DNA of 64,000 bases. Origin: Pseudomonadota bacterium. GTDB lineage: Bacteria > Desulfobacterota > Desulfobulbia > Desulfobulbales > SURF-16. The stretch lies in assembly GCA_018822545.1 (NCBI GenBank), contig JAHJKA010000049.1, positions 1-64,000 of the forward strand. The letters are read 5' to 3'. The stretch's first letter is position 1, and every line of letters begins with the position of its first letter. Below the pieces are notes generated by a model. That model was not told the origin of the DNA and ran no database searches. It worked only from the letters and a program-made list of their open reading frames with translations. Shown here in pieces: positions 58,223 to 64,000 of this stretch. The translations under genes were made by a program, and so were the position numbers.

Positions 58223-59522
58223 TCTGCTCTTTATTCTTCTTCTCACGGCCTCTTCCTGTTTCGGGGCCAGCCTCATCGAGCTGCAGAAAAACGCCATTGA
58301 TAACCGGAAAATCATTGAACAATACCAGGCATATCTTGACAAGAGCAGTAAGGACGTCACCATTGCCAGAAGTAGCTTTATGCCCAATTTTGACGTGTCC
58401 TACTCCACCAACTCCCTGAATGAGAGCAATCCCCAGGAGGCCATCGACAATTCGGTGGCCTATGGTGTTATCACCTGGAATCTCTTTTCCGGCTTTTATG
58501 ATTATTACAATATCCGCTCTGCCCGCCTCCTTGAAAAAGCCCAGCTTTACAAGCTGCAATCCGTCAAACAGGATATCCAGCTCAACGTTGCCTTGCGTTA
58601 TCTCGAAATCTTCAATCGCCAAAGCAGCCTTGAGGTCGCCGAAGAATCCCATATCACCCTCAAAAAGCTGCATGAGGACGCCCAGAACCGCTTCTCGGTT
58701 GGCCTTATTGAAAAAAACGAGCTCCTGCGTTTTAAGGTGGATATGAACAATGCTGCTATCGCGGCCAAAAAAGCCCAGGCAGAACTCTCCAAAAGCTTGC
58801 AGCGCCTGGTGTTTGAGACAGATGCACCTATCAGCATGATTGATCTTGATTTCAAGGAGTTCAGCCAGTTACCCGTCCTTGAGAACCAGGAAAACTATCA
58901 GCTCAGCATGCTGACCAAGCGCAGCGAGATCATGGCCCTGGAAGAGCTGGCGAAGGCCGTTACCCTCCAGGTCAAGGCCGCCTATGCCGGCCGCTACCCT
59001 CGCCTGGATGTCAGCGGCAGCTATAGAAAATACGAGAACGACTATCTCACTGGTGACGGCGACTATTACGAAGAAGAGCTGCGCGGCAAAGCGGTGCTCA
59101 CCATGACCCTCTTTGACGGTTTTTCCCAACAGGCTGAAGTCAGCAAGGCCAAAAGCGAAAAACGAAGCGTTGCGGCCCAGCTCCAGGAGTTAAAAAAATC
59201 CCTGCACATGGAGCTCACCAACCTCTTTCTCGACTATGACGTAAGCATCGACAATGCCGCTGTCTCCCTGGCCACCATCGAGCAGGCCGAAGAAAATTTG
59301 CGGATTACCAGATTAAAATACAAGGAAGGTCTTGAAAAGGAGTCTGATCTCCTGGATGCCATCACCAATCTGTCCCGGGCCAAATATACCTATGTCACGG
59401 CCCGCACTGAGGTCTTTGCCAATTATTTCAAGATTACCCGAGCGGTTGAAAATTTCAACACGACACCCATTGAGCTCGTAGACTCCATGGCCTCAACCAA
59501 ACAAGAATCTTTTCAACAATGA
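58209..59522 (+). CDS. TolC family outer membrane channel
   Basis: The start at 58209 has AAGGAG at good spacing and gives a signal peptide (MKLSSLLFILLLTASSCFG); the frame is also open upstream within the pump gene. The rest is helical with two repeated halves, including SYSTNSLNESNPQ and ASYRKYEN-like beta strands (SGSYRKYENDYL). 437 residues is normal. The 14-base overlap with the pump gene indicates one transcript and a complete tripartite pump. Confidence 0.92.
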   Translation: MKLSSLLFILLLTASSCFGASLIELQKNAIDNRKIIEQYQAYLDKSSKDVTIARSSFMPNFDVSYSTNSLNESNPQEAIDNSVAYGVITWNLFSGFYDYYNIRSARLLEKAQLYKLQSVKQDIQLNVALRYLEIFNRQSSLEVAEESHITLKKLHEDAQNRFSVGLIEKNELLRFKVDMNNAAIAAKKAQAELSKSLQRLVFETDAPISMIDLDFKEFSQLPVLENQENYQLSMLTKRSEIMALEELAKAVTLQVKAAYAGRYPRLDVSGSYRKYENDYLTGDGDYYEEELRGKAVLTMTLFDGFSQQAEVSKAKSEKRSVAAQLQELKKSLHMELTNLFLDYDVSIDNAAVSLATIEQAEENLRITRLKYKEGLEKESDLLDAITNLSRAKYTYVTARTEVFANYFKITRAVENFNTTPIELVDSMASTKQESFQQ

Positions 59523-60322
59523 CCACTTTTAAATCACCCCTGGAACTCTATAAGATCCTGCCTCAGACCAACTGCAGGCAATGCGGCCTGCCCTCGTGCC
59601 TGGCCTTTGCCGCCGAGGTGCTCAAGGGAGGCAAACGTCTTGACTCCTGCCCCCACCTGTCCCCTAATATTCTCGACATCCACCAGAGCGACAGAAACAG
59701 CCCTACAGTTCTTGAGCAGGAGCTCAACGATTCCATGGATATCCTGCAGGCCCAGGTCGCTGATCTTGATTTCCAGGAAGCTGCCAAACGTTCAGGGGGT
59801 TTGGTGCACAACGGCAAACTGCTCATCAACTGCCTGGGCAACAAGTTTGAAATCAACGACAGGGGCAAGGTCTCCTCTCTCTGTCATACCAACCCCTGGT
59901 TTACCGTGCCTCTGCTCAACTATGTATTAAAAGGCAAAGGGACACCACCATCAGGTGAATGGGTGTCCTTCCGCGAATTGCCAGGCGGCAGCGAATGGAA
60001 CCCCCTCTACCGGCAACGCTGCGAAAAACCCCTCAAGCAGCTGGCCGACAAACACCCTGAGCTTTTTGCCGACCTCATTGACATCTTCAGCGGCCGGCAA
60101 CCACAGCATCATTTTGACGCGGACATCGGCGTCCAGCTCCTGCCCTACCCAAAACTACCGCTGCTCATCTGCTATTGGCAACCTGAAGAAGATTTGGTCT
60201 CCAAACTGCAGATATTTTACGACATCACCGCCGGTGACAACCTACCGACCGAATTCGTATACAGGTTAGGAGCAGGACTTGTCCGGATGCTTGAGAAAAT
60301 CTCGCAGCGCCATACGCTTTAA
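59519..60322 (+). CDS. Fe-S and DUF3786 domain protein
   Basis: The N-terminal 50 residues hold a four-cysteine cluster motif (TNCRQCGLPSCLAFAAEVLKG, then DSCPHL) like the 4Fe-4S domain of corrinoid/acetyl-CoA pathway proteins. The rest matches DUF3786 in character (LLINCLGNKFEINDRGKV, LLNYVLKGKG, PLLICYWQPEED). This pair of domains is common in Desulfobacterota; its function is not known. The ATG overlaps the TolC stop by four bases, so it is in the efflux operon, an unexpected association. Confidence 0.8.
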   Translation: MTTFKSPLELYKILPQTNCRQCGLPSCLAFAAEVLKGGKRLDSCPHLSPNILDIHQSDRNSPTVLEQELNDSMDILQAQVADLDFQEAAKRSGGLVHNGKLLINCLGNKFEINDRGKVSSLCHTNPWFTVPLLNYVLKGKGTPPSGEWVSFRELPGGSEWNPLYRQRCEKPLKQLADKHPELFADLIDIFSGRQPQHHFDADIGVQLLPYPKLPLLICYWQPEEDLVSKLQIFYDITAGDNLPTEFVYRLGAGLVRMLEKISQRHTL

Positions 60323-60349: not shown

Positions 60350-61807
60350 TTACAATTTTCTTGAGATGGCGAAATAAAAAGTGACGCCCTTACCTGTCTC
60401 TGATTCGCTCCATACCTTGCCGCCATGAAGTTCGGCAATCTCTTTGACTATGGCAAGGCCAAGACCGCTGCCGGAGACATTCTGGCTGGTCACTTCACGT
60501 GCAAAAAGTTCAAACACCTTTTGACAGGCTTCAGGGTCGAGACAGGCCCCGTCGTTATGCACTGAAAAGATGTGTAAGAGAGGAGCCTTCTCATAAGCAA
60601 TGTCAATATGCGCCAAGCCCTCGCCACCATACTTCAAGGCATTATCAACAAAATTGCGAAAAACTCTTAACAGAGCCAATCTATCGGCAGTGACCTCAGG
60701 GATGTTTTCAGGCTCGTGCCACGTAATAGACCTATCATTCAAAGCCTTACTGTGCTCTTGGCGCACCTGGGCAAAAATATCTTTGGGATCGAGCACTTCA
60801 ACGTCAATGGGTTGTTCTTTGGTGGAGATATAGATATTGATCTGCTCAACGAGCTTGGTAATCTGCTCAGCTGAACGGATAATCTGCTGACAATAACGAC
60901 TGCCCTTCTCATCAAACAGATGGCCGTAGTGCTTCTCCAAAAGTTTAGTCAGACCATGGATGGAGACCACGGGATTTTTCAGATCGTGTGACACGGAGTA
61001 GGCAAAGAGCTTTATCTTTTCAAAGCTTTCCTCCAAACTCTGCTGGGTGGTATTTCTTTCGACAAGGCGCCTCTTACCATGAACAAAAGAAAAGACTATC
61101 ACCAGCAGGCCGAGTAACCAGAACAAAATATGACTCAGATAAATAACGCGTAACGCTTTGGCCTCCAGGGCCTGGTAGGGCGCCATGGAAAAGGAAACGC
61201 CCACAGCGCCTCGCACGTCGCCGGCTTTGTACCCCTGGGCCGCATGACACTTGAGACAAAAGGCGTTGGTAATCATCGGCCGCATCAGTCTCAACCAGGA
61301 CTCACCGTCATCGCCCTGAACAATCTCAAAGACCTCTTTTTCACCCTGCTCAAATTTGGCAAGGGCCCTTTTTTCCCAATCATCCGGGGCATTCTTCTCA
61401 TTGAGAAGTTTCAGACTGGTGATATGGCCCTTGACCTCATAGAGTTCCTCATACTGCTCCATGATCTGCCGCATCATGTAGGCAGGATTAAGCAGGGTAA
61501 GCCGTTTGCCGCTGGGGGTGACAATATCACGCTCGGGGATATGACTTAAGGCCGGATTAGGGGGAGTTTCCTTGGTCTCGGGGACATAAACGCCGCCATG
61601 CTTGTTCCCCCAGAGACGAAAGGCTTGATCCTTATTAAAAATGGTTAGCGCCTCTTTCTGAGCGAGCTCCATTGTCCTGCCCTTCTCCATGTCTACATAG
61701 AAATATCCGGACAGAGAACAAAGAAATGACCAACCAAAAACAGCAAGAATCGTAACCCGTTGCACCGACTGCAGGTCGTTGTTATAGATTTTGTTCCAAA
61801 TTCCCAT
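60350..61807 (-). CDS. Sensor histidine kinase with periplasmic Tll0287-like (DUF3365) heme domain
   Basis: A membrane segment (about residues 18-36) is followed by a periplasmic DUF3365-type domain with one c-type heme motif CLKCH in ITNAFCLKCHAAQGYKAGDVRGAVGVSFSM. A second membrane segment (about 222-242) leads to HisKA (FAYSVSHDLKNPVVSIHGL) and HATPase (RNFVDNALKYGG, SGSGLGLAIVKEIAELHGG). The ATG at 61807 was chosen; a TTG at 61885 would add 26 hydrophobic residues. It probably senses redox, NO or CO through the heme. No response regulator is adjacent. Confidence 0.9.
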   Translation of the reverse strand: MGIWNKIYNNDLQSVQRVTILAVFGWSFLCSLSGYFYVDMEKGRTMELAQKEALTIFNKDQAFRLWGNKHGGVYVPETKETPPNPALSHIPERDIVTPSGKRLTLLNPAYMMRQIMEQYEELYEVKGHITSLKLLNEKNAPDDWEKRALAKFEQGEKEVFEIVQGDDGESWLRLMRPMITNAFCLKCHAAQGYKAGDVRGAVGVSFSMAPYQALEAKALRVIYLSHILFWLLGLLVIVFSFVHGKRRLVERNTTQQSLEESFEKIKLFAYSVSHDLKNPVVSIHGLTKLLEKHYGHLFDEKGSRYCQQIIRSAEQITKLVEQINIYISTKEQPIDVEVLDPKDIFAQVRQEHSKALNDRSITWHEPENIPEVTADRLALLRVFRNFVDNALKYGGEGLAHIDIAYEKAPLLHIFSVHNDGACLDPEACQKVFELFAREVTSQNVSGSGLGLAIVKEIAELHGGKVWSESETGKGVTFYFAISRKL

Positions 61808-62080
61808 GGTCACGTTAGCATCACGACACACAACACATAAATAAAAGACGACAAAGAGAGCAAACGCCTCCGCAAAAAAGCACAAATATTACAATATCAT
61901 GAAATTATTGGATATCCAAAGAAAGATAGCAGAAGGTTTCGGAGCAGGGCATGAAGTCCTGCCGACCAGACAAGTCGTGCCCGTCAAAAGGAAATATCTA
62001 CCTGCTTAGGGCCACAGACTTAGGACAAGAAACACATCAATCAGCCTGCGGCCTGCGGAAGAAAGCAGCCGAGCTTGACA

Positions 62081-62299
62081 CTAGCTCTTAATGAGTTTGG
62101 CAATCTCGCCCTCTTCAGGGAAGCGGCCCAAGGCCTTTTTCGAAAAGATGTTTTTGCCGTCGACATCCACCTCAAAAACTCCACCTGAACTGGCAGTCAG
62201 TTGCACTCTCGCATCAAAGGCAGCCTGCAATTCGTCTCCCAAACTGGAAGCACGTGGCTTATAGTTTCACTTTGCGCAGTAGGTTATGATAATTTCCAT
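62081..62299 (-). CDS. SelW/Rdx family selenoprotein (in-frame TGA as selenocysteine)
   Basis: ATG at 62299 has AAGGAG nine bases upstream. The frame reads MEIIITYCAK, then TGA (62269-62267), then NYKPRASSLGDELQAAF, continuing to TAG at 62083. This gives 72 residues and the redox motif CxxU of SelW-type thioredoxin-fold proteins. C-terminal features match the family: SSGGVFEVDVDGKNIFSKKALGRFPEEGEI. A candidate SECIS hairpin lies just after the TGA. Gene callers reading TGA as stop will miss or truncate it. It probably has a thiol/selenol redox role in the cytoplasm; the partner is unknown. A pseudogene is unlikely because both sides of TGA are conserved. Confidence 0.88.
62233..62254 (-). promoter_or_regulatory. 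Candidate bacterial SECIS hairpin of the selenoprotein
   Basis: On the minus strand, CGT-(G)-CTTCC pairs with GGGAG-ACG around the loop AGTTT (62245-62241), which contains GU. The loop begins 21 bases after the TGA, a distance typical for SelB-binding hairpins. A second possible fold (AAACT/AGTTT with AAGC/GCTT) overlaps it. Confidence 0.55.
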
Positions 62300-62491
62300 C
62301 GAGCTCTTCTCCTTGAAATTAGACGGGATAAGCAAACAAATTAATCACTTCGCTGCTTGCTCGCCTCTCCATGAATATGCTATTATTTTAACAAATTACT
62401 TACAAGCAGAAAAACTGCCACACCATATGAACGTTGAGAAGTCCCCCTTCTTCTCATGGTAACCCATCCTGAAACCCTTTAAGGAGCACCA

Positions 62492-62857
62492 ATGGCAGCA
62501 AAGGAAAAGCAAGAGAAGGTCGGTAGGAAGTTTTTCCGTATCCCCCTGGAAGACCCCCATGATGCTTCTATTACTATTAATGGCAAAAAATTTGCGGTGA
62601 TTAATGTTGCCTCCCATGGCGTTGGCATTTATCTGGAGGACGCCGACACCTTTGATATCGACACAGAACTCACAGATGTCGATCTTTCAATTAATGGCAC
62701 ATCTTGCACAGTTAAGGGCCGCATTGCCCATGTAACCCCCGCCAGTATTCATTACCTCTGTGGCATTGAGATAATTGAGATGACCCAACAGGCAGCGGAT
62801 ATCCTTCAGGGCTTTATTGATCAGCATAACGCCAGCCTTTTTTCCTTTATGCCCTAG
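62492..62857 (+). CDS. PilZ domain protein
   Basis: The 121-residue single-domain protein contains RKFFR (RxxxR motif) near residue 13 and NVASHGVGIYL ([D/N]xSxxG), the two c-di-GMP binding motifs. AAGGAG precedes the ATG. It probably responds to c-di-GMP in the cytoplasm and could act on motility or adhesion. It is followed, after 14 bases, by a small possible DNA-binding gene and then ParA. Confidence 0.88.
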   Translation: MAAKEKQEKVGRKFFRIPLEDPHDASITINGKKFAVINVASHGVGIYLEDADTFDIDTELTDVDLSINGTSCTVKGRIAHVTPASIHYLCGIEIIEMTQQAADILQGFIDQHNASLFSFMP

Positions 62858-62871
62858 CAGACACCAAACCT

Positions 62872-63312
62872 ATGTCTTTTGCGCCGGAACGAACAAACAT
62901 CATTAAAGAAATAATGGCCGACGGCGCTCACTGCGGGGATCCAATACCCGTGATTGATGAGTTAACGCAACTCATCAGGCTGTACACTCCACAGAATCCT
63001 GTCGGCCCGAGCGGACGCAACACAACCCTCTCCTCGCCACTACTGTGCAAACTGCTCCCACCGGATTACAGCAGAAAAAAAAGCAACTTCCATCTCTCCC
63101 ATGATGTTACCGAGGGCTTAGAGAACGCAATACGCTTTCTTCGGGATCAACTGCCGCTGGGCTCAAAAATGGAGATCACTAAATCAAAAATTGTAGAATA
63201 CGCCCTTGAACTCCTCCTTGAGGACTTCGACGAATACGGAGTCGACTCTATCCTGGCCCAAAAAATCTTAAAAGAATTTCAGGATAAAGGCGATACTAAT
63301 GAGCTTACTTAA
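62872..63312 (+). CDS. Small protein of unknown function, possible ParA partner
   Basis: The 146-residue protein has a polar N-terminal half and a helical C-terminal half (HDVTEGLENAIRFLRDQLPLGSKMEITKSKIVEYALELLLEDF), which looks like a ribbon-helix-helix or other DNA-binding fold by its strand plus two helices pattern. It starts 14 bases after pilZ and ends 20 bases before the ParA gene. Position suggests a centromere-binding or adaptor partner, but no family was recognised. Confidence 0.55.
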   Translation: MSFAPERTNIIKEIMADGAHCGDPIPVIDELTQLIRLYTPQNPVGPSGRNTTLSSPLLCKLLPPDYSRKKSNFHLSHDVTEGLENAIRFLRDQLPLGSKMEITKSKIVEYALELLLEDFDEYGVDSILAQKILKEFQDKGDTNELT

Positions 63313-63332: not shown

Positions 63333-64000
63333 ATGATTTTAACCTGCCCGCATTGCTCAAAAGAACACTCCATTGACGAGTCCAAAATCCCAGCGGACGT
63401 CACCAAGGTACGGTGCAAGTTTTGCAAACAACTTTTCCCCTTTGGTGAGGAAAAAAAGAGTGGCAGCCAGACGCCAAGGGTACGAAAAATTGCCGTCTCT
63501 TTAAGTAAAGGCGGGGTTGGCAAGACCACCACGGCAGTCAACCTGGCCCACGGTCTTTCTCTGGCCGGCTACAAGGTTCTTCTTATCGACACCGACACCC
63601 AGGGCCAATCAGCATTTATGTTGGGGGCAAAACCATCGGCCGGGCTCACGGAACTGGTCACCAATGAACTTGCACCGGAGGAATGCCTCTTCCAAGCCAG
63701 AGAAGATCTCTGGCTGCTCGCCGGCGGCAAATCTCTGGCCGGAGTCAAGAGGGTTATTGATCGTAAGGATTTCGGTGGAGAGATGACCTTGGCGGAGAAA
63801 CTTGCTCCCCTTGAAGATCAATTTGACTATGTAATCGTTGACACATCACCGGGCTGGGATCCTCTGATTGTCAACGTGCTTTTTTATGTCACGGAAATAC
63901 TCATACCTGTTTCTCTGGAAGTCATGACCTTGCAGGGACTTGTGGAGTTCTTGAAATCAATATCCTCCATCCAGAAATATCAACCGGAACTGGGCCTGAA
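63333..64000 (+). CDS. ParA/Soj-like ATPase with N-terminal zinc ribbon (3' end outside window)
   Basis: ATG at 63333 opens a zinc-ribbon (CPHC, then CKFC, residues of about 5-32) of the MJ0042 type. The deviant Walker A KGGVGKTTT (about 60-68) follows, with Walker A' LLIDTDTQGQSAF and Walker B YVIVDTSPG. The right edge cuts the gene after 222 codons. ParA-like proteins position chromosomes, plasmids or protein complexes. The zinc-ribbon fusion and the PilZ neighbour suggest positioning of a c-di-GMP-linked or DNA-associated structure rather than a plasmid. Confidence 0.85.
   Translation, partial: MILTCPHCSKEHSIDESKIPADVTKVRCKFCKQLFPFGEEKKSGSQTPRVRKIAVSLSKGGVGKTTTAVNLAHGLSLAGYKVLLIDTDTQGQSAFMLGAKPSAGLTELVTNELAPEECLFQAREDLWLLAGGKSLAGVKRVIDRKDFGGEMTLAEKLAPLEDQFDYVIVDTSPGWDPLIVNVLFYVTEILIPVSLEVMTLQGLVEFLKSISSIQKYQPELGL

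Follow-up and report, generated by a model that had tools for sequence, protein, structure and literature searches.

The window, the 64,000-nucleotide stretch of DNA that was analysed here, contains a short frame with an internal TGA, and the question is whether this codon ends translation or is read as selenocysteine. The original prediction had proposed an unannotated SelW/Rdx selenoprotein of 72 codons at this locus. Its coordinates were correct; the gene lies on the minus strand, which had been left unstated, and a plus-strand reading of 62081..62299 gave no sensible protein. The features of the gene are as follows.

62081..62299, minus strand: SelW-like (Rdx family) selenoprotein gene, 72 aa, with ATG at 62299 and a TAG stop at 62083..62081
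62267..62269, minus strand: TGA at codon 11, in frame, read as selenocysteine (CAKU, CxxU motif)
62309..62314, minus strand: Shine-Dalgarno sequence AAGGAG, by direct reading, 9 bases 5' of the ATG
62236..62250, minus strand: bacterial SECIS upper stem-loop CUUCCA-GUU-UGGGAG, with 22 nt between the UGA and the loop

Translated from 62299 to 62081 on the minus strand with TGA as U, the gene gives MEIIITYCAKUNYKPRASSLGDELQAAFDARVQLTASSGGVFEVDVDGKNIFSKKALGRFPEEGEIAKLIKS, in which the predicted CAK-TGA-NYK reading appears as C8-A-K-U11. The ribosome binding site described as strong is the AAGGAG listed above, and GGAG-type sites at similar spacing precede the gene in many relatives. Promoter and terminator scans gave results at chance level, and an Rfam family search over this stretch returned no match at E values up to 10. 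As selenocysteine is written as a stop codon, the gene is hidden from ordinary gene finders; the mechanical listing of open reading frames gave only a 53-aa fragment beginning with TTG, 3' of the TGA (62081..62242, minus strand), as had been anticipated.

Family membership was assessed by profile searches with TGA as U. The translation scored above the cut-off of Pfam Rdx PF10262 (74.8 bits versus 22.6, E = 6.2e-21, profile positions 2-73 of 74), of TIGR02174 (62 versus 34.2) and of NCBIfam NF041051, the SelT/SelW/SelH family (seleno)protein (100.9 bits versus 88). The segment after the TGA reached a family E value of 5.7e-14 by itself, which bears out the SelW-like C-terminus proposed for it, while a 20-residue stretch at the N-terminus, in which Cys stood in for Sec, gave 2.2e-4. 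Since each part scores separately, the sequences before and after the TGA are parts of the same protein. Both C8 and U11 were invariant in the alignment.

One public genome collection was scanned with peptide patterns that left out the TGA. It yielded 47 relatives, most of them Desulfobulbaceae or relatives of Desulfocapsa, with others from Gemmatimonadota, Planctomycetota, Actinobacteria-type and other bins. Cultured relatives that have the gene include Desulfopila aestuarii DSM 18488 and Desulforhopalus singaporensis DSM 12130 (L032 and L035). The TGA was present at the CxxU site in all 47, so that close relatives carry it at the same codon and do not show random stops there, and the upstream segment MEIIITYCAK was kept in every one. 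Within the window's own family the gene was found in 19 of 22 genomes, as 19 copies with one TGA each, and all 18 copies from genomes other than the window's read as CxxU; this set and the 47-relative scan are not independent, several loci apparently coming from the same genomes (identical sequences, e.g. L070 and L023). A phylum-wide sample of 297 genomes contained 42 with a match, of which 39 had a TGA inside it and three did not, these three having Cys at the site (CTQC, CGVC and CGVC). This is the exchange of Sec and Cys that is expected of a selenoprotein. Given that the frame scores as this family before and after the TGA, and that the TGA is conserved, chance can be excluded. Comparison of the part after the TGA with the nearest relative gave a dN of 0.12 and a dS of 0.75, further relatives being near dS saturation. 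No relative of the gene was found among viral contigs. In the three family genomes that lack the gene (G003, G012 and G018), a search run without a positive control gave no match to the neighbouring PilZ-domain protein either; the absence may reflect either an assembly gap or loss of the locus.

A hairpin with a GU loop 21 bases downstream of the TGA had also been predicted. The hairpin is present, with a GUU loop, and the distance is 22 nt. Folding of the 40 nt from the TGA gave a minimum free energy of -8.7 kcal/mol and a 6-bp upper stem, CUUCCA/UGGGAG, closed by GUU. The published bacterial SECIS model has a loop of 3-9 nt, an upper stem of 4-16 bp, a G at one of the first two positions of the loop, a distance of 16-37 nt from the UGA and a minimum free energy of at most -7.5 kcal/mol (PMC13188914). 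The present hairpin lies within all of these limits, with a 3-nt loop (G first, then U), 6 bp, 22 nt and -8.7 kcal/mol. Its energy was only modestly better than that of shuffled sequences (z = -1.7; 11 of 200 shuffles as good).

Stronger evidence came from covariation of the stem. Among 41 distinct sequences, standard pairs filled 89.9% of the pair cells. Changes on both sides of a pair, seen at three pairs, were found in 28 cells as compared with 6.7 in shuffles, and covariation was 0.331 versus 0.155, these values being supportive rather than probabilities because the shuffles ignore relatedness. Sliding the partner strand by one to three bases reduced pairing to 29-51%, and RNAalifold on its own recovered six of the seven pairs that were counted. 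Failures were concentrated at the basal pair 19-35 (21 of 41 sequences) and were fewer at pair 22-32 (6 of 41). Compensatory pair types included UA, CG and GC at columns 21-33 and UA and GC at columns 22-32, for which the protein alone would offer no ready explanation, although these bases are also constrained as codons. It is thus the covariation that makes the hairpin convincing, the energy by itself being modest.

A selenocysteine codon implies that the organism encodes SelA, SelB, SelC and SelD, and all four were found in the genome, a 3.34-Mb draft that is 84.8% complete: selA (625 bits), selB (365 bits, full length), selD (373 bits) and tRNA-Sec (72.8 bits; ARAGORN anticodon tca). A second selB-like match (C42) was rejected as a second SelB, its translation reading as EF-Tu. 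There are two forms of SelD, one of Cys type with AGCAAK (L010, on contig 50) and one with an active-site TGA in SGUAAK (L011, G000:C5:14986-15903, minus strand); the genome therefore has at least one further selenoprotein gene. A scan of the window for CxxU, UxxC and UxxS/T frames yielded many chance candidates on the motif pattern alone.

Profile scores, the covarying SECIS, the Sec machinery and the conserved TGA all agree. We conclude, with a probability of about 97%, that this gene of a Desulfobulbales-type bacterium encodes a SelW-like selenoprotein of the Rdx family, with the UGA at codon 11 decoded as selenocysteine by means of SelB and the hairpin. SelB, attached to the hairpin that follows codon 11, would deliver Sec-tRNA(UCA) to the UGA, and the 72-residue product would have a thioredoxin-like fold, its first strand followed by CxxU, as solved relatives suggest. 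The protein is most likely a small cytosolic thiol/selenol oxidoreductase, with a presumed redox activity, acting on thiols, and a presumed partner.

Three other explanations were weighed. A decayed gene, in which a Cys codon mutated to TGA and left the frame as a pseudogene, would look the same in one genome, where only a bare in-frame stop is seen, and one relative does carry a broken second copy (G020 contig 165). This reading is contradicted by the TGA, which all 47 relatives, from several phyla, keep at this codon, and by the amino-acid constraint 3' of it; the covarying hairpin also stands against it, and we regard decay as very improbable. It is just as hard to credit that the UGA is read as an ordinary amino acid, by suppression or a changed code: nothing specific favours it, TGA is a normal stop here, as it ends 18 of the 44 open frames of at least 250 codons in the window (not all of which are genes), the genome has the complete Sec machinery and, with that of SelD, a second gene of Sec type, and the homologues without TGA have Cys at the site. 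Finally, a 53-residue product started at the internal TTG (62242), bypassing the TGA, is the frame given by the standard listing, but it would have neither the first strand nor the CxxU motif and would leave the conserved upstream segment, with its invariant C8, unaccounted for, and there is almost no chance that it is the true product.

As a SelW-like selenoprotein, the window protein is homologous over most of its length to Cys-containing Rdx/SelT-SelW-SelH proteins of solved structure (2obk, 2oka and 2fa8; phmmer E = 5e-10 for 2obk). The alignments with 2obk and 2oka place CxxC where the window protein has CxxU, and the chains of all three have about 104 residues, as compared with 72 here. 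Mammalian selenoprotein W (2npb), also solved, belongs to the same Rdx family and is remote in sequence (E = 9e-4). It has a CxxU motif, and the eukaryotic SECIS is located outside the coding frame, in the 3' UTR.

Among bacteria, a SelW-like selenoprotein was named in 2006 for Desulfotalea psychrophila, a deltaproteobacterial sulfate reducer, with others in further Deltaproteobacteria, and Cys homologues of the family were described as few or absent in organisms that use Sec, as is the case here (PMC1794560). The likeness is drawn from that published listing, and no difference beyond species-level sequence is expected between the two proteins. The 2005 survey of the Sargasso Sea metagenome reported 48 SelW-like genes, the most abundant family found; from their description they share the family, the CXXU motif and the bacterial SECIS with the present gene, but are sequences of marine plankton (PMC1088965). 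SelW-like selenoproteins are thus not new, and the window gene is a routine, previously unannotated member; as the family has long been known, it implies little surprise. Its identification restores a gene overlooked in a draft genome and provides, for this lineage, a well-sampled SECIS with compensatory changes.

The surroundings of the gene are also conserved. The neighbouring genes are as follows.

62492..62857, plus strand: PilZ-domain protein, divergent neighbour, recurring near the gene in many relatives
62872..63312, plus strand: small conserved protein with no Pfam match, in the same syntenic block
63333..63998, plus strand: zinc-ribbon/ParA-type ATPase, same syntenic block, running off the window
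60350..61885, minus strand: Tll0287-like sensor histidine kinase, downstream neighbour, adjoining selW in the closest relatives

In many relatives within the family the PilZ, small-protein and ParA genes are found as a block near the SelW-like gene, PilZ identities going down to about 27%. This recurrent linkage may reflect shared ancestry only. That its persistence across genera of the family denotes a functional tie, for instance through a motility-related or cyclic-di-GMP module under redox control, is unlikely; the conserved neighbourhood may nonetheless point to a partner for a selenoprotein family whose function has been called unclear and for which interaction with glutathione has been reported (PMC1088965).

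Some further observations concern individual loci. The second copy in G020 (L088, G020:C165:4308-4481, minus strand) is truncated at the 5' end, where the start and the Cys of CxxU are missing, and adjoins what appears by eye to be the C-terminal end of an IS3-type transposase; an intact copy is found on another contig of the same genome. The SelW-like translation in a record titled uncultured Sulfurovum (L031) is identical to that in a Desulfocapsa bin (L030), and probably reflects a binning or naming error in the public record. Elsewhere in the window, the frame at 59519..60322 (plus strand) joins an Fe-S domain (PF04060) to DUF3786 in one protein.
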